DNA from: Cymbomonas tetramitiformis
Lineage: Eukaryota; Chlorophyta; Pyramimonadophyceae; Pyramimonadales; Pyramimonadaceae
Direction: 5' to 3'
NCBI GenBank assembly: GCA_001247695.2
Contig: LGRX02034704.1
Span: forward strand, 1-64,000
DNA length: 64,000 nucleotides
Shown here: piece by piece, positions 6,737-55,071 of the stretch
How the letters are laid out: each line of letters begins with the position of its first letter
How positions within the stretch are numbered: position 1 is the stretch's first letter
Notes under the pieces: model-generated
Told to the model about the DNA's origin: nothing
The model's input: the letters and a program-made list of their open reading frames with translations, nothing else
Databases searched by the model: none
Program-made: the position numbers and the translations under genes

Positions 6737-8692
6737 TCAATCAAAAACATATTTCCGAGCATTTGTCGTAGTGCCCCAGGCACACCCGCGGTGATGTGCC
6801 ACTCCCATGACAGAGATCAAGAGAATGAAGGAAATGATGTAAGGCATCCCCCACGTACCCGCGGGGAAGCCCCATGGCGGCTTGCCACACCCATAGGTGC
6901 GGGAAGCACCACCAGACCAGTCTCCGTAGGCACCGCCAGAGCGAGGCGCGTGGGCTGCGGACTCCGACGCATGATTTGCCGAAATAGCCGGACTCCACTG
7001 CTTCATGATGAAACTGCCGTCAGCGAGGTCCTCGTAGTCGTCGCTGTCGTAGCCAGTGAGGTCAACCTTTGCGATGGCGGCGCGATTGACGGTCTGAACG
7101 AACCCAGCGAACTCACCGTCCGTCGCCGCCGTGGCGGTCACCCGTGCATACAGGCATAGCAGGGGCCGGCACGGCGGATGCCGATGCCGCAGCACCACCT
7201 GCCGGAACCTGCTCCTCAGGCGTGATTCCCGCTGCGGCGGGGCCACACACCAGAGCCGAAGTCTGCTGCTCGATGCCGCCAGGAGGCGGCCCGGGGAAAG
7301 ATGCGTGTGTGAAGTGCACCTGGTGATTGGCCGCGGAGTGAACCTCCGCGGCAAGATCGTCAAGCCGTCGGAGAATGTCGTCCCCCGTGGGCTCGTCGGG
7401 AGGCGGCGTAGGCGGACACGTCGATCCCGCCCAGCACCGCGCCCGCACAAAGCACCGCGGGCGGCCCGTACGTGGTGGCCGCACGAGCGAAGGCCTCCGC
7501 GCCATCATCCGCTGCCTGCTGGAACAGGACACACATGGCAAGTGCATGCACCCCCTCCGCGTCCTCCTCGTCGATAGGAACTCAGAATGCCGCGGCGGAG
7601 GTGGGCGAGTGTTGGCGCCCGCCCAACGGGCAGTCGCGGTAGAAGTGATAATTCTCACTACCCTTTGCCCGCTTTCTTGCACCTGCCGCAGAACGGCTTC
7701 GCCCGCTGATCGTCGCGGTCGAATCCCACGGGTGGTGCAGTGTGCTGCCCCACACGATACCCCTTCGGCAGCTGCGTCCGCTGCTGCTGCCGCTGCGGCA
7801 CCCGCTGCCGCTGAACCGCCGGAGTGCCCTCACCGTGCTGTTGCTGCACCAACGCCTTCAGCTCCATAATCTTCTCGAGGAGGGCGTCGTACTCGCCGCT
7901 GGAGAGGTGCGCGGAGATGCTGCCCGTGCCCGAAGCCGCCTTACCCGCGTCCGTCTGTGCCCAAGCCTGGTAAATCTCGACCACCATGGAGCGGAGCGAG
8001 ACAAGCGAGACATGAGCAAGGTCAGCGGCCATGTGGTACCGCACCTTGACCGCAGCGTAAAATGCTGGGTACAACCTACTGTACAGGCTCAGCTTCCTCG
8101 TAGCTTCCGTAGGCGTCCAGTCGGAGGCCTTGTTATCCCGCACCAAACGTTGCTCCTTCTTAGCCAAAATCGGCTGCGGGTCAACGTTTGCGGGATAACG
8201 CAAAGTCGCATGCTCCTCCTGCTGCGACTCCCGCAGCGCCACCGGCACGCAGCCCTTGATGATGTCGACCAGAGCGCGTCGGCCATCTCGGTCAGACGAA
8301 GCATCCGTACCAGTCAGCCAGACGTACGCGTTGCTGTGCTTCTCCACCACGAGAGCCAGCACGTCGTAGAGCAGTCCATTGACCCTGTCCACAACCAGAG
8401 CCAGGGGGTCGTCGAGGTCAAAGGAAGCAAGCTCCAGCCCAGCAGACTGAAACTCCGTACGCAGCCGCACCACCAGGTCGGACAGAAGGCCAGCGTCGTC
8501 CGCACCGCGGAAGCGGTGCTTCTTGTCACCAAGAATGTCCTCGCGGATACTCCTGCATGGCCCAGGCACGATGAAGACGCGTCTTGTAGATCTCGTCGGC
8601 CAGTTTCCCCTGCTCTTGCAAGTAACGCCTGGTCGCAACGTCGGCGTCCTCGTTCGAAGCAGAGTTGGGAGTCGGAACAGTCGAACAGACAA
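6737..8692 (-). pseudogene. Decayed gag/membrane polyprotein of family A (copy A2)
   Basis: Reading right to left, the first frame (8692-7658) is gag-like with conserved blocks FQSAGLELASFDLDDPLAL, TGTDASSDRDGRRALVDIIK and VRDNKASDWTPTEATRKLS. It ends in a zinc knuckle CGRC...H-x4-C that is split by a frameshift at about 7658. The C-terminal half continues in other frames and includes VDLTGYDSDDYEDLADGSF, then CGKPPWGF and a hydrophobic segment (YIISFILLISVMGV). Protein order is therefore gag, zinc knuckle, spacer, CG[KR]PPxGF motif, transmembrane segment. No protease, RT or integrase is present. At least one frameshift plus the lost C-terminal tail make it non-functional. It contains the uninterrupted sequence that serves as empty site for the 46.3 kb, 48.1 kb and 48.98 kb insertions. 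Confidence 0.8.
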
Positions 8693-9276: not shown

Positions 9277-10351
9277 TGGCTACTATCCAAATTCATGGTC
9301 CTCCCACAAGGACCAACGCGCGATGACTATTATGAGTGCCACATGGATCTTTGAGGCGTATACGTGCTTTTGACATCATATTTATGAGTCAATTGAATAA
9401 TTTCCCCTACAGGATCGTCCACGCGTATGCTAGAGGGGCGTGCTTAAAGGGTGCGCTTTTGATATGTTTTTTATCGAAATCGTCGAAAAACAGATGGTCC
9501 TCCCACAAGGACCATAGTCTTTAACCGTCCTAGCGGTTGCATGGTGCGCGGTGTTGGCCGCGCATGGTCGTACACCTTGAGTTTATGACCAAATATGAAA
9601 ACTTAGTTGGATAGTCCACACTCTAGTCGCCATCTGAGCTCTCGTTTACCGTGGCGGCTGATCACTCCCGAGTGAAATAAGGATTTTGTGATTTTTGCAC
9701 TTCTAATTTTCACTTCGCGTCAAGCTAACGAGTGCACATCGCTCACATACTTGCCCATATGGCTTATGTTAAGCTTTCAAAAAATCATTTTATGGATATA
9801 CTTCAAAAGTTTAAGCACCATACGCTCCTACTACACTGTGAATGCACTCTAGCGGGCATCGTGGATAATGGGTCATGTTTGCACCGATTATCCCATTCCG
9901 GCTAAAAAAACGACTAAAAAGGTGTGCAGTTGTTAATAAGCATTAGAGATGGCCAATATATGCACTCCAACATGACGTATGACCCAAATATGATGGGGAC
10001 ATGTGTATAAGATCGATATTATCGCATGGACGCAGGTGTAGCCTGCACATACTATTCCCAAAAGATTATTGAAGATGTCGTATCTTTTTGTGCCTTTTTG
10101 AATTTTCAGAAAAAATGCAATCTGAAAAGTTGAGGGTGCTTGTCGCAAATGCGAACGCCATGGATATATTGGGTGGATCCAGGCCGGACCAAGCATCGAA
10201 GTAATTAATATATGTCCCATTGATACTAAAAATCATTGGGCGCGCCTTCTAGATCCGAACCAATGCCCAATTAAATTCTTGCAACATTGGTCCTTGTGGG
10301 AGGACCATAATCGATTATGGTCCTCCCACAAGGACCATGTGATAGTAGCCA
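9277..10351. mobile_element. Hairpin-ended inverted-repeat element (HP-1), 1075 bp
   Basis: Starts TGGCTACTATCC and ends GATAGTAGCCA, flanked on both sides by TATA (9273-9276 and 10352-10355), a 4-bp target duplication. Perfect hairpins of the form GGTCCT-cccaca-AGGACC lie at 9297-9314 and 9496-9513 near the left end. Two more lie back to back at 10289-10306 and 10319-10336 near the right end, where together they form a palindrome of about 50 bp around ATAATCGATTAT. No ORF worth annotating; non-autonomous. Same architecture as the elements at 29741, 48148, 51274 and 52433. Confidence 0.85.
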
Positions 10352-24927: not shown

Positions 24928-26817
24928 ATGGGAGAAAGCCCGACCTGCCAGAAGTGTGGCACAACAGCACTGTGCACCTATAAACATATCCAACTGAACT
25001 GCCCAGGAGAAGGAAATGAACTACATCAGCTAAGAGAAAACCAACAGGAGGAAATAAAAGAGACTATCAAAAAAGCCACTGCAGGAGACCCGAGATTGAT
25101 AATAGAAGGCAGAAACACAAGGGGTGGCACCACCAGAGCCGCTGAAATTTCCCCCCTAGCAGAAATAGACAAGGACCTAACAGCCTCCAGACCGCTTGCT
25201 GCCCTTCCAGAGGCTAGCATGTACAGACTATCAAATACCAGGAAAGGTACTGTAGCAGTAGCCGCTGCACCCATCGGCATAAACAACGATGGGTGTCACA
25301 ACTTCCAAGACCTACAGTACATCAAAAAGAAAGAATTATGGAAGTTAGTTGAGTGGCATAGGCTGACAACTGATACACCCCAGACATCGATCAGTAATTA
25401 CACACAACGGGCCAATGATATCCACTCAGCGCTTATAGCATGTAATACTGAGTCGGGCGACCCGAAGAATTGTTATGCAATGAGAAGAGATTTATTAGAC
25501 ATCATCATAGATGAGAGAGGCTTAGGAAAGGACGGATGTGAGCTTTTCTGTAACCCTGTAAACTCACACCCAGGAATCAAATCAAGGAGGTGCATTCCCA
25601 CGGCAGCAATGAAAGAGGCGCTGAGACCCTTTTGCCACAAAGGAGAAATAGGATGGGATGGACTTGCAAGAGATGCATATATCAACAGTGTCACTGGAAA
25701 AGGGAAAAAGGTCTATGGAAACCCACCATTTGATGGTGGGGTCCTAAGGGAAGCATCTGCTGTTATGCAGACATTGTCCCGTGGCTTAGAGGCGGCCAGG
25801 ACTTCAGAGGGATTCGAGGGAATCTGGATCCTGCCTTTATCTCCAAAGAACCTCAAAAAGTGGACAGGAAAAGGTTTTAAGTTAATCTTCAAATACCCAA
25901 GGGGGACCATACCGTTCATCCCACATGATTACTGGTCAGGTAAAGGACCCTACACAATGCCAGGGGAGGGATGTTACAAAGATAAGTACTCAGATGTAGT
26001 CATAATGTCCATGGATAGTGAGAGCATGGGATGCCCCGTCAGTAAGAAACTTGACAATGATAAACTGCAATACAAGCTGCTTCAATGGTTCATAAATGTA
26101 GTCCCGCATAAAAAGATTACCCCCAAACTGCTCAAAGAAACAGGCCTGCACCCGGATATGATTGAGCAAGCCCTTAATGAGAGAGACTGTTCGTTGCCAC
26201 CCCGGTTATGCCCGTGGGTTGGGGGCAGGAATAATGTGGAGCAACGAGACCAGTACCCTGGAGCACACTTGGATGGCGAGCACAGGAATGCAGGAGGAAC
26301 CCCCTTCCTTAATGCGGTGGAGTGGCCGGAGGAACTTGCTATCATGGGATACTTACCAGAAGGCTTTGGCAAGGTGCTGAAAGGGATCGGGGTTCCACAT
26401 CGTGGGGTGAAGACACTCTTGAAAAAAATGCCCAGGATGTGTAGGCGTCATGCAAGGGAAAGATGCATATTACATGAAACGGGAGTCCCACCTGAGAGTG
26501 GCACCATAGAGGAAGCGCCCAGCATTCAGGAACTTTGCACGAAAAATAGGAAAGAAAATGAGGTTGTAAAGGCCGCAAGGGAAGTGCTAGGCAACTATGT
26601 GAACCCCCACCCAGCCACCCTCCCCTCAGCCCCCATGGGGTTGGGGCCCCGTAGGGCCCCGGCCCTGCGGGGGCACCACCGGCCCAGGGGCCGGAGCACC
26701 CCTGGGCTTTTCTCACTTCATCACCACCACCGCCCACTCCGCCTCCATCACCATCGTGCATCAACTCCACGACCTGCTGATGTTTTCGTTTCCGACGCTG
26801 GTGGCAGACACGCTTAA
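24928..26817 (+). CDS. Non-LTR retroelement C-terminal part: zinc finger plus NPPF methyltransferase-like domain
   Basis: Same frame as the RNase H entry, restarting with MGESPTCQKC. C-QK-C...YKH-x4-C is the zinc finger commonly found after LINE RNase H. About 180-340 residues in, there is a unit beginning CELFCNPVNSHPGIKSRRC, followed by IGWDGLARDAY, KKVYGNPPFDGG, EGIWILPLSPKN and YSDVVIMSMD. Order and spacing match phage Dam-type N6-adenine methyltransferases ('DlFA..N', then 'W', then NPPY/F motif IV, then a hydrophobic strand). A further ~200 aa have no match I know, and the last ~70 residues are Pro/Arg/His-rich. The MTase reading is inference from motifs. Such a domain is known in DIRS-type elements; behind a LINE RNase H it would be new to me. 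Confidence 0.6.
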   Translation: MGESPTCQKCGTTALCTYKHIQLNCPGEGNELHQLRENQQEEIKETIKKATAGDPRLIIEGRNTRGGTTRAAEISPLAEIDKDLTASRPLAALPEASMYRLSNTRKGTVAVAAAPIGINNDGCHNFQDLQYIKKKELWKLVEWHRLTTDTPQTSISNYTQRANDIHSALIACNTESGDPKNCYAMRRDLLDIIIDERGLGKDGCELFCNPVNSHPGIKSRRCIPTAAMKEALRPFCHKGEIGWDGLARDAYINSVTGKGKKVYGNPPFDGGVLREASAVMQTLSRGLEAARTSEGFEGIWILPLSPKNLKKWTGKGFKLIFKYPRGTIPFIPHDYWSGKGPYTMPGEGCYKDKYSDVVIMSMDSESMGCPVSKKLDNDKLQYKLLQWFINVVPHKKITPKLLKETGLHPDMIEQALNERDCSLPPRLCPWVGGRNNVEQRDQYPGAHLDGEHRNAGGTPFLNAVEWPEELAIMGYLPEGFGKVLKGIGVPHRGVKTLLKKMPRMCRRHARERCILHETGVPPESGTIEEAPSIQELCTKNRKENEVVKAAREVLGNYVNPHPATLPSAPMGLGPRRAPALRGHHRPRGRSTPGLFSLHHHHRPLRLHHHRASTPRPADVFVSDAGGRHA

Positions 26818-29455: not shown

Positions 29456-31518
29456 CCAGGGGCACCCACGGTGCACTGGCGGACCCTTCTTCTTTTCTAT
29501 ACTTGGCGGTACTTGCACGAGAAAAGGCTACCGGTGGCGGCGGCGGCGGATCAGCACTAAATTTACCACCTAATGAGTGGCTTTTTATTATCTTGCAATA
29601 TGCTCAGCTTGACTACATACCTTGTTCTGCAGTGAATCCAGGGGCACCCCTGGTGCACTGGCCTAACTGTAGACAGGTTTGTGTCACTGAGAGCTAATCA
29701 GCACGGCATCAGCTTGGGCGGCGACAGCGACAGAGCAGATTGGCTATTACCCTTCGGGTGGCTTAAGCCACCCTAACAGCGATTTAGGGTGGCTTAAGCC
29801 ACCTTAACGTTTTCAATTATTGCGGGAGCTATCGGTACCGGAAACTAGATTTTTTAAGCTCAAAATGACGGCGACAATGTCTTCTTTTAGACACTATATG
29901 CACTATTCGGCAAGCCCAAGTTTCCGGTGAGCAATTTTGGGAAGTATCCAAGAGGGTGCAACATTTAGTGAATTTTGAGCAATTTTTCCGATTTTTGCAT
30001 ACCCATGCTACTTCAACCGAGATTTTGAGGGTCAAGATGACCTCGGATCAAACTTTTGGCAGCACACTGCAGAAAGAGCAGCTCGAGATCTTGACATCAT
30101 AGGTCTCCAAATTTTGAAAAGCGCCTTCGAGGAAGCCCCCGTGAGCTAATTGGCTTAAGGTGGCTTAAGCCATCTTAAGGAAAATTGGGAAATACCCACC
30201 CTACTTCAACCGAGATTTTGAGGGTCAAGATGAACTCAGATCAAACTTTTGATAAGACACTACAGAAAGAGCAGCTCAAGATCTTGACGACACAGGTCTC
30301 CAAATTTTGAAAGCACCGCCGAGGAAGCCCCAATGAGCCCTTCAAGTTAAGGTGGCTTAAGCCACCTTAAGCTGCGGGTAATAGGCAAGATTAGCGGTGA
30401 ATGACCACCTTACTTGATGAGTAGTTATTATCCTGCGGTCCCTCTAGTTGACCACCTTGTCTGAAGTGAATCCAGGGACACCCCTGGTGTACTGGCCTAG
30501 CTGGAAGGCAAGTGTGCGACCTAGAAGCTAATTAGCAGCGGCATCTGCCTGGGCTGACTAATTAGAAGTGGATCTGCAGTGAGTTACTATCTGTATGGCT
30601 GGTCTTATATCTTACAGTTTCCCTGACGGTACCACCCTGTCTGACGGCTAATCCAGGGACACCCACGGTGTACTGGCCTAAGCTTGAAGCAGGAGTGTCT
30701 TCATAAGAGAATTAGCAGCGGCATCAGCCCTGAAGGCAGCAAGTGGGTCAGCTTCATATATATTATCTACTGTTCTGGCAGAGGTATCTGGTGGATTCAG
30801 ACTTGATTTGCCCACTGGCTCAGCCTGGAGTGCTGCTGGTTATTTTTGGAACACCTTCGGATGTTTGCTGACACTCTCTTAGCCCTCCTACGGCTCTTGG
30901 CTACTGGTGAGGCCCTTATGACACTGATTACCTTCTTAATGAGCAGTGGTGTTGCGAATCCAGGGGTGCTCAGCACACTGGCTTAGCCTCCAACTCTGCA
31001 TAGCGACTTGCACTCCTGCTTACTGGACTGAGAACGAGCTTCCATGGTAACTTCGGTGCTCTTGATGAGCAGTGGCGTTGCGAATCCAGGGGGTGCTCAG
31101 CACACTGGCTTAGCCTCCAGCTCTGCGTAGTGACGTTTGCTTCTGGTACCTTGGTTGAAAACGAGTTCCATGACGACTGCAGGACCCTTAATGAGCAGTG
31201 GTGTTGCTAATCCAGGGGTGCTCAGCACACTGGCTTAGCCCCCAGCTCTGCGTAGTGACGTTTGTTCCTGGTACCTTGGCTGAGAACGAGTTCCCATAAC
31301 AACCTCTGTGCTCTTGATGAGCAGTGGCTCTGCGAATCCAGGGGTGCTCAGCACACTGGCTTAGCTCTAAGCCTTTCACACGAATATTCTGCATCTGCCG
31401 CTGATTCAGAGCGCCGAGACATATTGTTAAGCCCTTGCTTGGGCCTGTGCTGGCTACACGCGTTTCGTCCTCCTGCTTGTTCAGAACGGTGGGAATCCAG
31501 GGGCACTCAGTGCACTGG
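29456..31518 (+). repeat. Array of nine covarying hairpins, CCAGG...CTGG
   Basis: Cores at 29456, 29638, 30472, 30653, 30960, 31086, 31212, 31338 and 31497, each 22-24 nt, beginning CCAGGG and ending AC-TGG. The inner stem changes in a paired way: GCACC/GGTGC (1, 2), ACACC/GGTGT (3, 4), GTGC/GCAC (5-8), GCAC/GTGC (9), with loops CAC, CCT or TCA. Spacing is 126 bp for units 5 to 8 and about 182 bp for 1-2 and 3-4. The 834-bp gap between 2 and 3 becomes 183 bp once the inserted element at 29741-30387 (plus 4-bp duplication) is removed. The array ends about 215 bp before the gag ATG of the Ty3-type element, so it lies in that element's leader or flank. Confidence 0.85.
29741..30387. mobile_element. 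Hairpin-ended inverted-repeat element (HP-2), 647 bp
   Basis: Starts TGGCTATTACCC, ends GGGTAATAGGCA, flanked by AGAT on both sides (29737-29740, 30388-30391). Two back-to-back hairpins, GGGTGGCTTAAGCCACCC at 29756-29773 and nearly the same at 29787-29803, lie at the left end. Single hairpins with the same word lie at 30347-30370 and about 195 bp further in, at 30153-30179. Two ~130-bp direct copies inside (30010-30110 and 30197-30320) contain CAGAAAGAGCAGCTC. It splits the hairpin array of the Ty3-type leader. Confidence 0.85.
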
Positions 31519-37518: not shown

Positions 37519-38520
37519 GTGGGCGTTCATCACGCTTGCAGGCAGTGCATTGGTTTGTGGTGGCTGGGACGAGGTCCCATGCCCATAGTGGCTATTTGGG
37601 CAATGCTGGAAGCGTTGGCTTGGCATCTGTTGCAATACCCTTTCCAGGTTTTGTGGTGGCGCTGCGTCGCCTCGTGCTGGGACTCACTGCAGACATGGTG
37701 GTCACTCGCTCGACGTTATCCTCGCCGTGAGTACCACGACATTTGGGTGTCATGGGCCCTCGCCGTCGTTTGGTACGCTGGGCTCCTCTTCGTGCACACC
37801 ACAGGTGTCTATGCCGGGATACGCCTTGTCCTTGCGAAGAATTGGACAGTGGTGCCCCTCAAGGGGGTCATTATTTCCCTGGCGTGTTGGTCGCGCCGTG
37901 TTGAGGCCGTGCTCCTCATGATCCTCGCTTGGCTCTGGATCTGTGCTAGTCTTCATGCTGACGACGTTGCACGCCATGTCGCTCGTGCCGTCGACGTCCC
38001 TCCGGACGCACGTGGCAGCCAGATTGGTCAGGGATGGACTGTCCCATCCTTGCGCTGGTCCCAGGTTCTCTTGCTGGGCCGTGTACACCTGCCCACTTTA
38101 CCCGTCAGACTGGATAAGCCTCGTTTTGCAGCGCGTTGGGCGCAGCTTCGGCATAATCTTAGGCTGCACCGCGTCGCGCAGACCGCCTACCTGGCACTTG
38201 TCTTCACGCTGGTGGTCTTTGCTGATGCTGATGGAAGTTCTCGCTTAACGCACGGGGGGTGGAGAATGATGGCGTGCTTGTTCGCTTCGAACCCGCCGGT
38301 AGCCGCGGTGCGGTTCAACAGAATTTTGCGATTTTTTCTGCTTTTGTGCGGGATTTTGTGGGTCGCCAGCAAGCTGGTGAGTGGTATATATGCCTGCACA
38401 TGGTGCCATGCCATCGACGCGGACTGCCTGGGGTGCGTCGCCTTGCACTTCCTGGGAGGCTCAGCAGTCGTCAAGGCAGTGGGAACCGGGCTGGGAGGCC
38501 AACGTCGCGGAGCAGGATGA
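37519..38520 (+). pseudogene. Multi-membrane-span segment inserted before RT
   Basis: A 333-codon frame with about six hydrophobic segments (VSWALAVVWYAGLLFV, AVLLMILAWLWICASL, YLALVFTLVVFADA, FFLLLCGILWVASKLV among them), Trp-rich. It overlaps the start of the RT frame by about 140 nt. It could be an envelope-like or anchoring domain of the element; no ATG clearly defines its start and no homologue is recognised. Confidence 0.5.
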
Positions 38521-39995
38521 GGTCTTGCCGTACACCGTGCTGGACGAGCTTCAGCCCTTGGGCAAGACGACTGTGACCAAGGACGAGGCAGCGTGGCTCG
38601 ACACAGAGCTCAATGCCACGTTTGGAGGCCATCCTGACTTCAAGGAGGAGCATTGGGAGGAAATGCGGGCTGTTCTTCGCAGATGCAAGGGCACCTTCGC
38701 CAACACCCCTCACGACTTGACTGGCTACAAGGGCAAGGCAGAGCACAACACGTTCTCCATCCCGTTCAAGGACGAGTCCAAGGCCGTTTACCAGAGGCCG
38801 AGGAAGTACAACCCGGGCGAGCAGGAGATCATTGACATTCACTGCAAGGAATTGCTGGAGTATGGCTTCATAGAGCCCGCAGCCAAACATTGCAGGCATG
38901 CGAGCAATGTCGTTGTGGCTGGTAAGAAGGACCACGAGACTGGTTTGTGGACCCAGACACGCTTCTGCGTAGATCTCAGGGGCGTCAACCGACACTCTCT
39001 CAAGGACAATACCTTGCCGCATCGACCAGAGGAGCTTTACCAGAAGGTTGCGAAGGCGAGGTTCAAGACGACGCTGGATGCCACCAAAGCCTTGCTTCCA
39101 CCAGATTCCTATGGCCACAGAAGAGGACAGGAGCAAGACGGCGTTTTGGTGGAAGAACCAGTTGTACCAGTACACCTCGATGCCTTTTGGGGCTGCTGGA
39201 GCAACGTCTGCGTTTGTGAGGATCATGGACTACGAGCTACGTCACCTGCAACATTGCACGGTGGCATACGTCGATGACGTGGTGGTCTACACGGATTCCA
39301 CGCCCGAGCAGCATCTGAAGGACGTCGAGGAGGTGCTGCGCACGTTGGGGGACGCTGGCATAAGGCTGCACGCAGGCAAGAGTACCTTTGGGGCAACCAC
39401 TGTGGACTTTCTGGGCTACCGCATTGGGCACAACTCTATTGGTGCGCAGGAGGCAAAGAGGCCCCAGGATAAGACTGGGCTCCGTTCCATTCTGGGCATG
39501 ATGAACTACTATAAGGGCTTGGTGGGTGAGCCCGGGGGACCAAATTATTCTGAGATGGCCCGCCCCCTCAACGATTTGCTCAAGAAAGAGATCACAGATA
39601 TCAAGGGAGCTTGGGGGAAGGAGCAGGACCAGGCACTCCAGGACCTTAAGGACTCGCTCTGCGCAGGGAGATGCCTGAGGCCAATCGATTATGACAGGCC
39701 CCTCATATTGTACACCGACTGGAGCATCTATGGCATTGGTGCAGTGTTGGGCCAGAAGGATGACGATGGAAAGGAGTACATCTGCGTGGCGATCAGTCGT
39801 TCCTTGAGCAAGACGGAGAGGCAGTACGCCAGCTTCAAAGGTGAGATGCTTGCGGTGGTGTGGGCAGTGCGCACGCTGATGCCGGGCGCATGTGTGGTTT
39901 GGTGTGGTGTGTGTGTGGTGAGCAACAGGAGCGATTGGAGCAACAAAGCATGCCGCGACATGACCAGCGAAGCCATCGAGGGAGCGTGGACATCG
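38480..39995 (+). pseudogene. Ty3-type reverse transcriptase and truncated RNase H
   Basis: The RT starts around DELQPLGKTTVTKDEAAW. Conserved blocks: SIPFKDESKAVYQRPRKY, RFCVDLRGVNRHSL, TLDATKA; then, after a frameshift at about 39094 (extra bases in GCCTTGCTTC), FHQIPMATEEDRSKTAFWW, MPFGAAGATSAFVRIMD, the active site AYVDDVVVYT at ~39264 and FLGYRIG. RNase H begins LILYTDWSIYGIGAVLGQ and reaches FKGEMLAVVWAV, then is cut off. No integrase or 3' LTR is found, so the copy is 3'-truncated. Confidence 0.85.
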
Positions 39996-40569
39996 CCGTA
40001 ACCCACGTGATCTGATTAGTAGCCGACAAGAATGTTGTTGCCATAGGAATTAGCCACGAAGAAGTGAAAAATTCATCCATGGTAGAACGTAGGTTGCAAT
40101 CTTGCAAATGATTAGAGAGATGCGCTTAGGTTGGCGGGCGGCAATGTAAGTAAGGCATGTATATAAATGTAAAGGTGTGTGGGGCATGCATTATTTTGGG
40201 GTAGGATTGTTGGTGATACAAGTAAACACGTGTTTCAGAAATGTGACCGCGGCAAGGAGAGTGTGGGCAAGTCCCCGACTACACAAAGGTATCGGGTTGG
40301 CAGCCCAAAATTTGTGTGGATCCCTTCTTGTGGCGGGCCATGGGCATTCCAAGCAAGGAGGCAACTTTCTTGATTCAATCCTTAGCCACACACCGTGGAA
40401 AGCAAGGGGGGTTGAGTAGCGATGTTAAGCGGCAATTATAGGTTGAATACCCTTCCAGAGGGTTGTCTACTTGGGAGGAATGCCCGTCACTTGTATGAAT
40501 AATGACAACATATAATGGATAAGATGAGTATAGGGATGGGGGGGGAGCATGCATAACTTGCAATGAAGT
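39996..40569. other. Spacer, no gene supported
   Basis: GT-rich sequence following the broken RNase H. It does not resemble integrase in any frame. Confidence 0.5.
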
Positions 40570-41130
40570 GCCCTGGCCGATTCAGGGCCTGAAAGGCATT
40601 TTCAGGGCACTGGCGTCATTTATGGGCACGAAAACCGATCTCCGGACACGAAACCATTTTCAGGCCACGAAAATGGTTTTTAAAACCCTGAAAATCCCAT
40701 TTTCAGGCCCCTGAAAAGTCGTTCGGGGCTGAATGCCGTTTTCAGGGTCTGAAAACCATTTTCAGGGCCTGAAAACCGTTTTCAGGGCCTATAAAGTCAT
40801 TTTCAGGGCCCGAAAACCATTTTCAGGGCCTGTAAAGTCATTTTCAGGGCCTGAATAGTCGTTTTCAGGGCCTGAAAAGTCCTTATCGGGGCCTGAAAAC
40901 CGTTTTCAGGGCCTGAAAAGTCGTTTTCAGGGCCTGAAAACCGTTTTCAGGGCCTGAAAAGTCGTTTTCAGGGCCTGAAAAGTCGTTTTCAGGGCCTGAA
41001 AAGTCGTTTTCAGGGCCTGAAAAGTCGTTTTCAGGGCCTGAAAAGTCGTTTTCAGGGCCTGAAAAGTCGTTTTCAGGGCCTGAAAAGTCGTTTTCAGGGC
41101 CTGAAAAGTCATTTTCAGGGCCTGAAAAGG
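40570..41130. repeat. Minisatellite of a near-palindromic 20-21 bp unit
   Basis: More than 20 tandem copies of TTTTCAGGGCCTGAAAA plus GTCG or CCG spacers, most regular between 40900 and 41125. The unit is a palindrome apart from its centre. A Phe-Gln-Ala-Leu-Lys repeat ORF on the minus strand is a by-product. Confidence 0.95.
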
Positions 41131-41505
41131 CATTTGTAGGCCTTAGGGCTGTTGTCGCAAGGGGGGGGTTAGGATTTTCGTTTTTGTCGGCCCGGGGTGG
41201 GGTCGAGAGATCGAGAGATGCTTCTGTCCGCTGGGTGGGTGGGGGCAAGAGATGCTGCTGTCCGCTGGGGGGGGGTCTGCGAATCCAGCGTGTCCGGAGG
41301 GTGACACGCCAAGATGTCCGGAGGGTGCATGCCATGTCATGTCGACACGTCGGTTCTCGTTCACAATTGGCACATGGGATGGCACACGGGAGTGTACTTG
41401 ACCATATTCCAGAGTGTTTCTAAGTGTCTTTCCCACTAGCTGTGGGATATTCTTTCACATCTTTCAATGTCTCTTGCTCATCCCACACAATGTCGCTCCC
41501 CTTGA
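41131..41505. other. GC-rich simple sequence
   Basis: TGTCCGCTGGGGGGG and GTCCGGAGGG words recur here and again at 42410-42500, on the other side of the SAM-like gene and MITE, so the two stretches were probably one satellite or a duplicated flank. Confidence 0.5.
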
Positions 41506-48147: not shown

Positions 48148-48821
48148 TGGCTACTGCCCGACGCTCCAGTCCTACCACAAGGACCGAAGTAAAAGGGGGC
48201 TAGCCGCCACGATTTTTCGATGTAGTTGATGTTTGAGTGCTTAAAGATCATCGTTGGGTGCCCAAATATTTATTAATTAAAAACATGTGCCGGGTGATAT
48301 ACTCGATATGGGTATGCACTTGTGAGGGCTGAAGACGTGGGGGTAAAATTAATTCAAATTAAATAAAAAGGCCAGTCCTATCACAAGGACCGAAATGTTT
48401 CTCACGCTAGCTACCTCCACTAAGGTCCTGTAAAAATTCGAAGACCTATGTTGTCAAGTTCGCGAGCTGCTCTTTCTGCAGTGTCTTGTGAAAAAAATGA
48501 TCGGAGGTCATCTTCGCCCTCAAAATATCGGTTGAAGTTGCCTGGGTATACAAAATCCGAAAATGTCACTGTGGTGTGGTTGGAATTTACTGATTTTTAA
48601 CGCTACCCGTGCTTAATGTTGATAACGTAGCATGAAATTGCGACATTGTTTAGGCAAGCGGGCAAAGGGGTACTCAGTTTAGGTCCCAATGAGACTACAA
48701 TCCGGAGGATAGGCACTAGGAGCATCAAGAGGATGTTTAAAAAAATTCCCGCGCGTCCGGTCCTTGTGATAGGACTGAACGAGATTCCAGTCCTTTCACA
48801 AGGACTGTCGGGCAGTAGCCA
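48148..48821. mobile_element. Hairpin-ended element (HP-3), 674 bp, in gag of element A
   Basis: Perfect 15-bp ends TGGCTACTGCCCGAC / GTCGGGCAGTAGCCA, 4-bp duplication CTTG (48144-48147, 48822-48825). The empty site is in copy A2 near 8251-8265 (CCCTTGATGATGTC). Hairpins GTCCT-accaca-AGGAC lie at 48169-48184 and 48375-48390 (206 bp apart) at the left; a back-to-back pair at 48760-48775 and 48790-48805 is at the right. 48430-48560 is the reverse complement of the CAGAAAGAGCAGCTC block in HP-2. Confidence 0.9.
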
Positions 48822-49379: not shown

Positions 49380-52104
49380 TCGATCCCGTCAGCTCTAGCC
49401 ACCTTGACAGCGCCCGGGAGAGCCGGCACCACTGTCACAACGCCCAGGAGAGCTGGTACCACTGTTCTCTGAGCCATAGCCGGTGTCTGCATCTTCCGAC
49501 GAATCATGCGTGGTGCAAAATGAGAAACTGCCGATGTTGTGGTTCCCGATTGGTGACGGCGGGATGGCCGCGGGCGATAGCACACCAGCACCACCGACCT
49601 CGTCGTCGGTGTGCTCCGATGCCGCGGATAATTCATGCGTGGGGCAATTTTGGGTAGAACCCAAACCTCGATTGTCGATTGAAAGCGTGCTGGAAGTCGT
49701 TGTCGTTGCCAGGAACACCTCCGGGTGTCCATGAACGACACCACCGACCGGTGGAGCCGCGTCGGCGCCCATGCTGACACCACCGAAGGCTGAAGCGGCC
49801 GACGGCACACACAAAGAAAAGCATGCAAACCGCGAGAGATGTTAGGGCGGAGTACCCAAAACCCAACGGCGGTCTGCCGCATCCCAAAGTCTGTCGTGGT
49901 GGCGGAAGACCCTCGTCGTCATCCTCGGAGTCCTCCTCCGCCACTGAAACGGAGTCCACGGGTGCAACCGGCCCCATGCAATGCATCGCAAGGGTCGGTT
50001 CAGGGCCAGTCAGGTCTAGCTCGACCGCAAACTTCTCCATGAAGGACACGTCCGGCTCGTGGGCGTGCAGCGCGCTGACGGGGTACATCCCCTCGTCGGA
50101 CACCACCGACTGCGGAGCGGTAGGCGGTGCTGGCGGCGGCGGCACGACCAGAGTGTCGGCATGGACCTTGCCGTGGACCTTGAAGCTGTTGATGTTGACA
50201 ACACTACCAACCGCGCAGACCCTGAAGCGGGTGTCAGCGGGCTGGCAGCACTCCAGATACTCGTCGATGGCGTCGGGTACCCGCTCCTCGGTGGCAGCGA
50301 AGGAGAAGGCGGAGACGGTGTCGTAGAGCTCCGGTTTTCCATCCGCAATGTAGCAGACGGCGTCGAAACGAGCGGCGTCGTTGCTCTCCATGGCATTCTG
50401 GAACAACGCGGCGAAGACGTCGTGTTCGCTGTCCGTGATGCTGAAGCCGTGTGCGCCAACATGTCCACGTGACCCGCCGTTCGGGCAGTCGCGGTGCCAG
50501 TGCTTCTCCGCCGTAGCGGAGCATGTGCGATTCGCGCACAAGGGAACGAACGTACCAGTAGGCTTGTGGAAAGCCACCTTCTTTGAAGGCCCTCCACGCC
50601 CATGTCTCTGCGAGAAGTTACCGTGCTCGGGAAGTGGCGTCGTACCGAAACGGTAACCGTCACCATGCCCACCCCGACCGATGGCGTTCTTCTTCTTGTC
50701 GGCGCGGGTCGTGAAACCCTTCGTGTCGTCGATACGGTTGTTGAGGGACTTGATCTCTTTCTTCATGTCATATAGTTGGTCACGGATCTCGTTGAAGATG
50801 GACTTGAAGTCGTTCTCGTCTTGCTGTCCAGTGAGGGCGAGGGCGGAGTGCTTCTGCGTAGCAGGCGGGACGTGCGAGTCGCTCCCGTTCTGAGCGTAGC
50901 ACTCACGAGCCCATTGCTGAATGGTGGCCAGGGACTCTGCCGCACGCTGGTCGTGTAGCAGGAGCCAGTTGACAACCGGCGCAAAGAAATGGGGTCGAAG
51001 GACTTGATGAACACGGACTTGACCTCCATGTCGTCGAGGGTGCTCTTCCGTCGAGCTGACCGAAGAGCGGCGTTGAAGGCGGCGATAGTCCGCGACGGGT
51101 CGTGCTTGGTGATCTTGATGACCAGAAGGTCTGCGATGCCCTGGAAGGGTCCGCCGGAATCCAGAAGCATCCTGGCAATCTCCAGCAACACCCGTTTCCC
51201 ATCAAACGGGTGCGTCTCCGCCGAAGACTCCATCCAGTCTACCGCGGGCGACACCGGAGCGACAATGTACTCAAGCGTCGAAAACAGCAACCTGTTCGCC
51301 CCTGACCCTGATTATGATGGAAATATTGAATTTCGACGGTACTACGCCATGTCATGCGCATATGCGGCGATTAATACGGCTAGTATGATATTAAATAAAG
51401 GGCTTACAAAATTAGTTTTGGTGACACCCTCGAGGGTTAACAACATACGCACCAACCCGAGCTCGTGCAACAAGGCCTAGAGTTGTCGGTACCCTAGATC
51501 CTTGTGGTAGGATCTAGCATATTAATTAAAATTCTGTGAAAGCACCCACCCAAACCACGCTAAGATTAAAGGTCAAACCATCGACATTTCAAGCAAACCA
51601 ATGTTATAGATAATTCAAAAGGTTCATAATTATTGCCCCAAAGCATATGCCGGGCCAAGAAATACGACATACAACGTCGCCATGCACATTTGCGCTAGAT
51701 CCTTGTGGGAGGATCTGGATTAAGGATAGTAGCCACTCAGACAGAGCGAACAGGCTGCAAGGTGGCATCCTCCAGGTCGAACAGAGAAGAAAATGCGGCC
51801 TCTTCAGTGATGAAAATGTCCCGTAACGCCAGAACCAGACGGGCGAAAACGGAGCTGACATTCGATTCCGCTCCAGTAAAGCGTCCAGTTTTGTCTTCAC
51901 AAACCTTCTTGATGACGAGCTTGGCGGCTCGCTCGTCGAAGGATTCCTTCGCCAGACGTCGCACCTCGTCGAGGAACTTCGCCCCTGCCGATTCAGCAGC
52001 TGTAGGGGTGGCTGGCGTAGTCGCATGTCTGGCTGCGGCGTCGTCGAAAATTATAACTAGGGATCGGCGGGCGGCCGCGGTGTGAGATCTAGTATAAGCG
52101 GTCA
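49380..52104 (-). pseudogene. Gag/membrane protein of element B, interrupted
   Basis: Starts MTAYTRSHTAAARRSLVIIF at 52104; the HP-4 insertion falls within FALSEYIVAP, and the downstream part continues in frames ending at 49633 or lower. A Cys/His cluster C-ANRT-C-...-H-x2-RDC takes the place of the knuckle. Further on are VELDLTGPEPT, an acidic EEDSEDDDEG run, GCGRPPLGFGYSAL and a hydrophobic SLAVCMLFFVCAVG. The same order as family A at low identity, so A and B share ancestry. A frameshift near 50760-51000 disables it. Confidence 0.7.
51274..51735. mobile_element. Hairpin-ended element (HP-4), one end degraded
   Basis: The right end GGATAGTAGCCA is followed by CTCA, and CTCA also precedes the left junction (51270-51273). 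Host gag codons read across (TTCGCTCTGTC-TGAG-TACATTGTC). Hairpins GATCCT-tgtggt-AGGATC at 51497-51514 and 51698-51715 are 201 bp apart, as at the single-hairpin end of the other HP elements. The expected TGGCTA and the paired hairpins of the left end are missing. Confidence 0.7.
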
Positions 52105-52936
52105 TGATGAAATGACTATAGAGAGAGGGTGAGGTAAATAATGCGAGGCGAGGCGAACGGTCTGGGCGACGGCTTGCCAGTTGTGGCGGGTCGTCGAGGA
52201 GTGACGGGTAAACAACAAATAATACGAGGTCGTGTGGGACGAAAGGATGCGATCGATGTTGGACGGTGTACCGGAGACCAGAAACAACAAAATCCAGCCC
52301 AACGATACTGCACGGAAAATAAAATGCCAATAACGCGCGCCCCACCCACGTCCAATCAACCGTGCGCCCGTAACTGAGCCATACCGCCCATACCGAAAAC
52401 CTCGCTAACGCGGGTCCCTCACCCCATCTCAATGGCTACTGCCCCGCAGTCCTTGTGGGAGGACCAAATCGACGATTTGGTCCTACCACGAGGACCATTG
52501 TTCCGATAATTTAATTGGCCATCTCCCGTGATTTGTGGTGTCTAACCAATGAAAGGTGGTATATATAGGTCCTATATTAATTTATTTGAACGCTGGTTTG
52601 GCCTATATCCATCCCATATATCCATGACGAACGCATTTCAAACCTCTACACTCAAATTTTTCAAAACGGATTTTCTGGAACATTCAAAATGTGGCAAATT
52701 AGTGACTCATCTTCAATAATTATTTACCAAACATATAGGTAGGCTATTTAATTTAGAATATTTTTTCATAAGTTTAGAATACCCCATTTTATCGTTAATT
52801 TAGAATAAGTTTTCTTTATGTCATCCGGCTATGACCGGTGCATGCATCCATGACGTTGTACCTGTACCTGTTGAGCTATCCCCATGCCATGCGAAATATT
52901 ACACTGAAGAGTTGTCTTGCCGTGATGTCCATATGT

Positions 52937-52992
52937 CCGAATGGAACCAAAAACCGTTCGATTAAAATCGAACGGTTTTTGGTTCCATTCGG
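52937..52992. repeat. 56-bp palindrome
   Basis: Arms of 26 bp (CCGAATGGAACCAAAAACCG then TTCGAT) around TAAA, perfect by eye. Followed by two CACGGCCGTG palindromes at 52999-53035. Confidence 0.9.
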
Positions 52993-53165
52993 AAAGATTC
53001 ACGGCCGTGAATCTAAAAGTCACGGCCGTGATTAACGACTCTTTACGCATAATGACTTTTATTATTTGCCATCTTTGCCACAATAGACACTCACGGCGTG
53101 TTCTGCTTGACAAAAAGTAAGTAACTTGAAGCCTTGAGCTTCAACTTACTGAAAGATATGCCCTC

Positions 53166-53950
53166 GGCTGTTTGGCATCTTTGGGTTTGGGTGTCACGTT
53201 CGAACCCAAACCCAAAGCATCTGCCTTAGAAATAGATTGCGCGTTTCGCGCACAAGTAACTTGAAGCCTTGAGCTTCTGGTAACTTAAATATATGTATCT
53301 TGGCAGTATTCGTGCCAAGTTCGTGCTCTAGGACGCACGGGAAGCCCTCGGCTGTTTGGCATCTTTGGGTTTGGGTGTCACGTTCGAACCCAAACCCAAA
53401 ACATCTGCCTTAGAAATAGATTGCGCGTTTCGCGCACAAGTAACTTGAAGCCTTGAGCTTCTGGTAACTTAAATATATGTACCATGGTAGTATTCGTGCC
53501 AAGTTTCGTGCGTTAGGACGCACGGGAAGCCCTCGGCTGTTTGGCATCTTTGGGTTTGGGTGTCACCTTCGAACCCAAACCCAAAGGCAAAGGCATAGGA
53601 CAGTTTCGTAGATTCTGTCCCGATGCCTTTGCAACCTCGCTTGCTAACTCATATTACAATGAATATTCAACATTCAAGCGTTGGATACCCCACGCCAACG
53701 GGAAGCGCTCGGCTGATTTGTTATTTGGGTATGCGCACCCAAATGACAAAAAACGCATCTTTGAAACTCGTTAGTTTCAAAGATGCGTGGCCGATGCCTT
53801 CGTGCTTATGTGTGTTAATCCATATGAAATATTCCATGGAATAAATGTGAATATCCCGCACAAACGGGAAGCGCTCGGCCGTTTTGTAAAATTAGGGTGC
53901 ACCCAAAATACAAAACGCATCTTTGAAACTCGGAAGTTTCAAAGATGCTT
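53166..53950. repeat. Five tandem ~180-bp units each carrying a hairpin
   Basis: Units start with CGGGAAGC-CTCGGCTG near 53165, 53343, 53523, 53698 and 53868. Each has a stem that differs between units but stays paired: GGGTTTGGGT/ACCCAAACCC (units 1-3), TATTTGGGT/ACCCAAATG (4), ATTAGGGTG/CACCCAAAAT (5). Units 4 and 5 add CGCATCTTTGAAACTCG...TTTCAAAGATGCG. Apparent ORFs are by-products. Confidence 0.8.
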
Positions 53951-55071
53951 GCCGGTCGCGTGCAGCGGTAAAAGGCAAGTCAAAGGGTTTAGAATCTAGA
54001 AGAAGTACAGGGGCCTTTTTTTCAAGCAGGACACGCCGTGAGTGTCTATTACAACGGCGCCCACCATTATCACAAGCGAGACAAACCTTCTTAAAGCTTT
54101 TTGGAGGCTTCCTCATGATGGCACCAGCGGGAACGAGAGCGTTTGACCTGTGTGCACATTATTTGAACACGAGTCGTGAAAAGGACCACCGGTCATAGCC
54201 GGATGACATCAAGAAAACTTATTCTAAATTAACGATGAAACGGGTTATTCTAAGATTAAGAAAACTTATTCTATATTAATTATTTTTCCAAACATATATC
54301 AACACTACACCTGCGCGGATACCATCAAATTGAACCTATAGATATGTCCCAATCATATTTGGGCGGTAGGCCCGGTTGGAATGCATATATTGGCTCGTTG
54401 GCTCGTTGGCTTCCCCTCTAATATATTGGCTCGTTGGTTTCCCCCTAAAACAGTGGTCACGCGAGCTGACCAGCCAGCCATCATAATTGCTTGCTAGAGG
54501 GCATATATCGCAAGGTTGGTGTGTGCGGCACATTAAATCTTCAAGTATATATGTATTGCGAATTTCTGAAAGTCTAACATCATCCAAATATCTTATTTTT
54601 CGACTGGCGTGTACATTTTAGAATGGATGAATGCCAATTTCTAAAGTCCGAAATTCACTAAATTCGGAATTTGCATTGTGTTGAACATGCGCCATGCTGA
54701 AATAGAGCGGAAATGATGATGAGGGTGCGAAGTAACCGATTCAGTTATCTTATTTGGTCATAAACTCAAGATGTATAACCATGAGCATCACCGTGAGCCC
54801 CCATGTGACTCCTAATACTCAAAATAACGGTGGTCCTTGTGGTAGGACCACCATTTTCTTCAAGCTTTTGGTGAAATTACACCCCTAAAGCGTGTCGTTC
54901 AACCACACACCTAAAGTCTCATGGGGGCCGCCGCTATAAGAAATAAAATTCATTTAACTCATAAATATCATGTGCAAATGTTGCCTGTGCCTCAAATAGT
55001 CGATTTGGTGATCGAAACCGCAATTGCCCATTGGTCCTTGTGGTACGGACCATGAATTTGGGTAGTAGCCA

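Follow-up and report, generated by a model that had tools for sequence, protein, structure and literature searches.

The first 64,000 nucleotides of contig LGRX02034704.1 of the prasinophyte alga Cymbomonas tetramitiformis (hereafter, the window) contain stretches with TGGCTA-type ends and with palindromes close to these ends. A preliminary description grouped five of them, HP-1 to HP-5, as a hairpin-ended family with 4-bp target duplications that fits no superfamily. The locus raises the question of which enzyme mobilizes such elements and what role is served by their palindromes.

Four of the five claimed members are complete. HP-1, HP-2, HP-3 and HP-5 possess both inverted ends (~12 bp, near-identical; TGGCTAYTRCCC and variants) and are flanked by exact 4-bp duplications (Table 1). 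The single-palindrome end is termed the S end, and the paired-palindrome end is termed the P end. HP-2 has the ends TGGCTATTACCC and TGCCTATTACCC, and five more genomic copies of its type were found (L017, L048, L049, L054 and L055). A TGGCTA left end was looked for in HP-4 and none was found; on this side, the gag frame of the host retroelement runs left past the claimed CTCA duplication, to about position 51300. Since the frame passes the claimed left border, HP-4 is a fragment with one end, and the CTCA most likely belongs to the gag of the host. An empty site was found for two insertions: a gag paralog in the window (8106-8405; 82% identical) has the HP-3 tetramer once, and a paralog in L061 (77%) has the HP-5 tetramer once. 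Around the HP-2 site, the sole spanning paralog has diverged too far at the junction for such a comparison. About 1.5 kb of HP-5 is a nested insertion unrelated to it; once this is removed, HP-5 is about the size of HP-1, and the two are collinear at 67-77%. The nested element has internal 184-bp tandem units with hairpins and an imperfect flanking repeat of ~20 bp.

Table 1. Positions of HP elements, their palindromic sites and associated features in the window (TSD, target site duplication)
Feature	Position	Strand	Description
HP-1	9277..10351	+	Complete, non-autonomous, 1075 bp; TSD TATA; S end left, P end right
HP-1 S1	9297..9314	-	Axis 29 bp from end
HP-1 S2	9496..9513	-	199 bp inward
HP-1 P2	10289..10306	+	
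HP-1 P1	10319..10336	-	Axis 24 bp from end
HP-2	29741..30387	-	Complete, non-autonomous, 647 bp; TSD AGAT; P end left, S end right
HP-2 P1	29757..29772	.	
HP-2 P2	29788..29803	.	
HP-2 internal "core" segment	29999..30119	-	Second copy at 30192-30312
HP-2 S2	30155..30178	.	Imperfect
HP-2 S1	30347..30370	.	Axis 29 bp from end
HP-3	48148..48821	+	Complete, non-autonomous, 674 bp; TSD CTTG; sits in retroelement gag
HP-3 S1	48168..48185	-	
HP-3 S2	48374..48391	-	
HP-3 P2	48759..48776	+	
HP-3 P1	48788..48805	-	
HP-4	51300..51735	-	Truncated; S end only (right side), P end lost; left limit approximate
HP-4 S2	51497..51514	+	
HP-4 S1	51698..51715	+	
HP-5	52433..55071	-	Complete, non-autonomous; TSD TCAA; nested insertion; P end left, S end right
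HP-5 P1	52448..52465	+	
HP-5 P2	52479..52496	-	
Unrelated element nested in HP-5	52738..54282	.	96-bp inverted arms at 52745-52840 and 54187-54282; limits approximate
HP-5 S2	54832..54849	+	
HP-5 S1	55033..55050	+	One-base insertion

Other features of the window were recorded as well. Retroelement reverse transcriptase/RNase H fragments (38381-40001) are closest to Cymbomonas proteins, and among the matches of the reverse transcriptase to C. tetramitiformis proteins are 92% over 59% of the query and 96% over 22%. An open frame at 24928-26817 carries an NPPF-like motif and by eye resembles an adenine methyltransferase, with no Pfam match at E 0.001. An SGPE(K/N) peptide-unit repeat that is open on both strands lies at 40938-41423.

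The palindromes are overrepresented in the window and are regularly placed. The motif GRTCCTTGTGGKAGGAYC, allowing up to three mismatches, occurs 13 times in the window versus 0.31 expected and a maximum of 3 among 100 shuffles. Start-to-start spacings of the two sites are 199, 192, 206, 201 (HP-4) and 201 at the S ends, and 30, 31, 30 and 31 at the P ends. The fixed asymmetric layout with two palindromes per end is therefore confirmed in the window, with spacings of 192-206 and 30-31. HP-2 keeps this layout with a different word, the loop-less palindrome GGTGGCTTAAGCCACC. The claim of a single word per member is only approximate: in HP-2, HP-3 and HP-5, the copies of the word depart from one another at one to a few bases. 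The palindromes are subterminal, so "hairpin-ended" is a misnomer.

The elements belong to a very large population. The exact 12-bp end TGGCTAYTRCCC occurs 8,636 times in the 851.7-Mb C. tetramitiformis assembly versus 175 times for a reversed control. Among the first 100 of these 8,636 places, 31 loci were chosen for two facing ends before their duplications were known. An exact 4-bp duplication is present in 28 of the 31 and missing in three, a proportion that becomes 26/29 upon excluding two loci that hold three ends and in which the nearest pair was set by hand after the duplication had been seen. At the same 31 loci, duplications of 3, 5 or 6 bp fit none and a duplication of 2 bp fits four. 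A set of 38 complete elements, each required to have an exact 4-bp duplication, was then compiled from 60 fetched loci (34 elements) and the window (four elements). Their upstream flanks are all different, and grouping by the first 60 bp of the S end gave 18 end families. Complete elements were recovered from 1 of 20 single-end loci and from 4 of 9 TGGCTATTACCC singles.

Out of 6 possible arm pairs, the 18 end families form on average 4.94 at S axis 29, and 5.50, 4.94 and 4.56 at P axes 24, 39 and 54, respectively, versus a baseline of 1.6 averaged over axes 12-61. Because the S-first orientation of each element was set with these very scores, those axes are somewhat favored. P axis 39 is the axis of the long palindrome made by the site pair. 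S axis 29 forms at least 4 of 6 arm pairs in 36 of the 38 elements, as does P axis 24 in 37. P axis 54 reaches 5 of 6 or better in 20 elements; in another 11, axis 55 ranks among the best centers. The second S site lies 199-206 bp from the first in 29/38 elements and 192 bp away in six, all of HP-2 type; in the remaining three, it lies at 239 bp once and was not found twice. The layout can be summarized as S-end axes at 29 and about 230 bp and P-end axes at 24 and 54-55 bp. Both the 4-bp duplication and the ~200-bp spacing of the preliminary description thus extend to most of the genomic copies sampled.

Relatives were also sought outside of this genome by pattern. Three pattern scans of viral contigs returned 6, 7 and 0 stretches, and no hairpin arms were seen by eye in these 13; 12 of them hold the CCTTGTGG word once and one (L008) three times, which we read as chance. 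Two stretches matched in a pattern scan of GTDB genomes. When viral contigs were scanned with a transposase profile, 28 stretches matched, and none is a relative. Two Rfam matches to HP-2 fell far below gathering scores and were dismissed as chance palindromes.

Longer copies with an open reading frame between the same ends, envisaged in the preliminary description, do exist and identify the enzyme. The first, L016 (C127 locus), is a 3,922-bp element with both ends and a TTTG duplication. It encodes a defective transposase whose gene lacks the first catalytic segment and has a frame break, and its open reading frame stays under the Pfam cut-off for DDE_Tnp_1_7 (13.8 of 22.4 bits). Full-length homologs include Cymbomonas proteins named either PiggyBac transposable element or hypothetical protein. 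DDE_Tnp_1_7 (PF13843) scored above its curated cut-off in all seven homologs scanned (E 4.1e-08 to 4.7e-26), with P0043 at E 3.6e-19. The assertion that the elements fit no superfamily is thereby overturned. A profile of 12 relatives searched against the PDB gave Trichoplusia ni piggyBac (6x67) as the top match (E 0.0034; next match, 0.24), and PDB searches with single transposase sequences matched no piggyBac chain. Judged from these comparisons of sequence, the relationship to piggyBac is a distant one. In the profile alignment, the DE motif of 6x67, which is catalytic there, aligns with DE 376-377 of the P0043-type transposase. The catalytic D-D-D is present, with D461 and D609 invariant and D376 at least 90% conserved in alignment A4; P0043 has a longer stretch than piggyBac from its second to its third Asp (D461 to D609). 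A C-terminal Cys/His pattern is conserved among the transposases, and from Cys/His spacing alone this region is read as a putative Cys-rich domain (CRD), which in the piggyBac superfamily is a cross-brace zinc domain. An AlphaFold model computed for P0043 from 11 sequences is of low quality (mean pLDDT 44). One transposase clade may have a Tudor-like N-terminal stretch, with matches (E 0.0078-0.048) below the Pfam cut-off.

A genome search for the transposase gave at least 56 matches, with 49 of 149 candidates scored. Several matches have open frames of at least 900 residues, and some contigs apparently carry one copy twice, with equal scores. Flanks of 2 kb on each side were examined at ten transposase loci. 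Matching ends with identical 4-bp duplications enclose eight of them (nine including L016): C1682, which encodes P0043 and has HP-5 ends (TTAG); C3247 (CTTA); C5529 (AATA); C2757, which has HP-3 ends (CATT); C20048 (TTGA); C16582 (TTGG); C7261 (TCGG); and C1025, which has TGCCTATTCTCC ends (CAAG). At C25081, there is a recognizable right end and no recognizable left end, and at C9444, the ends are similar and the flanks unequal, with no matching duplication. The P end lies on the 5' side of the gene and the S end downstream in all nine complete gene-bearing elements, with the second P site or the S axis located by eye in four. The CAAG element at C1025 was found inserted into a copy of another family (TTCT, TGGCTACTGCCC ends; L094/L095).

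Two window elements can be tied to specific gene-bearing copies. HP-5 is 95-97% identical to the C1682 element over 637, 305 and 123 bp, and HP-3 matches the ends of the C2757 element at 94% over 243 bp and 99% over 153 bp; its internal stretch has no match in the fetched C2757 flanks. On this identity, HP-5 is a derivative of the C1682 element, and HP-3 carries the ends of the C2757 element. An autonomous partner of HP-2 was not found, C1025 being only a relative. Transposase relatives from environmental and other sources (P0047, P0051, P0053, P0057, P0058, P0060 and P0061), including one MMETSP transcript, were also noted. The environmental relatives suggest that the lineage extends beyond the Cymbomonas genome.

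The enzyme bears upon two alternative readings. Hairpin-driven single-strand processing, raised in the preliminary description, would make the palindromes hairpins in single-stranded DNA of IS200/IS605-type or rolling-circle elements, in keeping with words that are hairpin-like, with compensating arm changes, and that number two per end. IS200/IS605-like elements, however, use a Y1 transposase and make no target duplication, whereas the elements here have inverted ends, 4-bp duplications and a linked DDE_Tnp_1_7 (DDD) enzyme of piggyBac type, and were rejected as members. The palindrome of the HP-2 family is furthermore loop-less, and in piggyBac, a palindrome at such a distance is a protein-binding site; we consider single-strand hairpins very unlikely. 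TG...CA ends and 4-bp duplications could otherwise denote an integrase-type element (Ginger) or a solo LTR, and Ginger1 and most Ginger2 elements likewise have 4-bp duplications (PMC2836005). Ginger elements have TGTNR termini, long TIRs (about 40-270 bp), specific targets and an integrase-type transposase (PMC2836005), whereas the TIR here is about 12 bp, the HP ends are TGGCT or TGCCT and the enzyme is DDE_Tnp_1_7 rather than an integrase. Ginger1/Ginger2 membership was rejected, and the chance that either kind of element is involved is negligible.

The layout is kept from one transposase clade to the next, but the palindrome word varies. A tree of 13 transposases places the TCCT word in two groups, P0043/P0044 and C2757/C3247, and the TACT word in a further group, C5529/C127, without fixing the order of the three. 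P0050/C16582 has the word GGTACAT..ATGTACC (TACAT) and TGTCCACTACCC ends, and the most distant transposase clade has loop-less palindromes. The C1025 word is GGTGGGTTAACCCACC (short form GGTTAACC), with TGCCTATTCTCC ends, and the C9444 word is TTGGCTGCAGCCAA, with TGTCTCTTACCC ends; the HP-2 word resembles the C1025 type. Site layout is alike across clades, although the S axis, as read from the sequences, is at 28 instead of 29 in the TGTCC clade. Words that follow transposase clades at constant positions are as expected if the encoded protein recognizes them. The proposed coevolution with a recognizing protein is borne out to this extent, and the binding itself we infer.

The arms of the palindromes also vary together. 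Among 24 distinct words, which are related to one another and from which HP-2-type words are absent because they do not align with the others, the covariation score is 0.304 versus 0.128 when shuffled; none of 500 shuffles scored as high, and slid controls scored 0.112 or less. Arm cells are paired in 93% of cases versus 15-45% when slid by 1-3 columns. Exchanges between arms are CG/AT at the fourth pair and GC/AT at the first two, and both-sided variation is confined to 3 of the 6 arm pairs. Two of five measures do not exceed shuffles, namely pairs with changes on both sides (3 versus 2.6) and further pair types (3 versus 4.5).

Binding by the transposase has to be weighed against two other accounts of the palindromes. 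They could be bound by a host factor or a second element-encoded factor, or act as promoters or insulators. This account draws upon the Tudor-like match, which hints at chromatin contacts, and upon the distance of the second S site, as about 200 bp between S sites approximates one nucleosome repeat. Against it are the change of words with transposase clade at constant positions, the presence of palindromes on both ends and the piggyBac precedent, and we consider it rather improbable. Alternatively, template switching or gene conversion, rather than selection for binding, could keep the palindromes perfect, making the covariation mutational. Long perfect palindromes are mutationally unstable, and copies are more alike within an element than between elements, as this account would have it. 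Conversion alone, however, does not account for axes constant to about 1 bp in most of the 38 elements and 18 families, and nearly constant in distant clades with unrelated words. Such processes may contribute to palindrome perfection, and we doubt that they suffice. Our best reading, by analogy with piggyBac, is that the palindromes are putative transposase-binding sites rather than single-strand hairpins.

The target differs from that of piggyBac. The duplication has the form YNNR in 32 of the 38 elements, which were selected for identical duplications, versus 5-13 of 38 in eight control sets of neighboring tetramers, and in 6 of 8 gene-bearing loci. TTAA is duplicated in 1/38 elements, and a central TA is present in 5/38. 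The piggyBac superfamily is defined by a 12-19 bp TIR and a CC[C/T]T terminus (PMC2872659). Its 4-bp target duplication is shared by the elements described here (28/31 end pairs), and its TTAA target and CC[C/T]T terminus are not; the ends are instead TGGCTAYTRCCC, TGTCCACTACCC, TGTCTCTTACCC and TGCCTATTCTCC. Since self-complementarity is lacking in most YNNR tetramers, scars would be expected after many excisions, and the seamless excision of piggyBac, which proceeds through a TTAA hairpin, would often fail.

A mechanism can be proposed from the piggyBac structure. In that system, the core domains hold the first 16 bp of each end; on one end, a dimer of the Cys-rich domain grips and bends the palindromic repeat that spans bp 17-33 (2020 structure paper). 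Base pairs 34-63 of the piggyBac right end resemble bp 7-35 of the left end, and a cryptic site lies near right-end bp 23-31; together these would place sites of the right end at about bp 53 and 27, not far from the P-end axes at 54 and 24. No counterpart of the S-end arrangement (29/~230) was met in the consulted part of the 2020 structure paper. In the Cymbomonas elements, the palindromes would be binding sites for CRD dimers, as in piggyBac, with the catalytic dimer placed on the outer 12-16 bp of the ends. The unequal second sites (~30 bp away at the P end, ~200 bp at the S end) would recruit a second dimer and set end polarity, leading to ordered synapsis. At the S end, the DNA would have to form a loop of ~200 bp for this, perhaps wrapped on a nucleosome. 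Strand transfer with a 4-bp stagger at loosely chosen YNNR tetramers would then generate the duplications.

Taken as a whole, this explanation, in which a transposase diverged from piggyBac acts through CRD-bound palindromes and inserts at YNNR, is very likely to be correct. With it goes the view, held with the same high confidence, that C. tetramitiformis harbors a large DNA transposon radiation with a piggyBac-related transposase, to which HP-1, HP-2, HP-3 and HP-5 belong as non-autonomous (MITE-like) copies and HP-4 as a truncated one. The radiation probably represents a separate piggyBac-related lineage, very abundant in this prasinophyte alga and with environmental relatives, that lost or never had TTAA and CCYT, kept the 4-bp stagger and has palindromic sites in a fixed 24/54 and 29/230 layout with a word that changes with clade.

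An internal segment of about 110-150 bp, present twice in HP-2, is a further shared feature and lies directly inward of the second S site. It is common, at 73-87%, to HP-2, HP-3 (48433-48563)/L046, L026, L036, L056, L034 and L030, which are non-autonomous and represent several end families. Among the transposase loci examined, the segment was seen in L094 alone, within the copy that the C1025 element had entered. The segment may act in cis to enhance mobility.

Genome engineering makes wide use of piggyBac, and the TTAA target and the unequal ends are among the properties that define it. Its asymmetric end organization is termed enigmatic in the 2020 structure paper. The Cymbomonas radiation offers natural variants, with intact-looking transposases, relaxed YNNR targets and changing words at fixed positions, for study of target choice and unequal ends. 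If our reading is true, these form a natural series for palindrome choice by the CRD and for the origin of TTAA specificity in piggyBac. Unclassified repeats make up 43.6% of the assembly according to the Cymbomonas genome paper, in whose main text the word piggyBac does not appear; the lineage may give a name to part of this repeat load. No literature joining Cymbomonas and piggyBac was found, and no catalogued family with these ends was met among the titles and abstract openings of the papers listed.

Comparison with known systems places the elements near piggyBac and apart from it. Like piggyBac of T. ni and piggyBac-like elements, they combine a DDE_Tnp_1_7 D-D-D core and a C-terminal region read as Cys-rich with a short TIR, a 4-bp duplication, a palindrome near bp 17-40 and unequal ends. 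They differ in that TTAA is used in 1/38 elements, the termini are TGGCTA, TGTCC or TGCCT rather than CCYT, both ends have a second palindrome, at a distance of ~30 or ~200 bp, and one clade has the possible Tudor-like stretch. piggyBat of Myotis lucifugus targets TTAA, unlike the Cymbomonas elements. It resembles them in having repeated subterminal palindromes, the first of which (bp 19-30) is bound by a CRD dimer; its three imperfect palindromes, however, are about 44 bp apart and occur on one end, with none on the other (PMC11707139). Pokey of Daphnia is a piggyBac family member with about 10% non-TTAA duplications and derived MITEs, but these duplications retain the central TA (PMC3849761), whereas the outer Y...R is retained here. 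PiggyMac of Paramecium is likewise a piggyBac-type enzyme with a non-TTAA target and an unusual CRD, although it is domesticated, targets TA and is not a mobile element (PMC8086355). Coral CMITEs are piggyBac-related MITE families that also conserve an internal segment across families, but with TTAA duplications, lengths of about 100 bp and CCYT ends (PMC2872659). The Cymbomonas elements are piggyBac-related by their enzyme and, because target and termini both depart from the superfamily definition, are a variant lineage rather than piggyBac proper.
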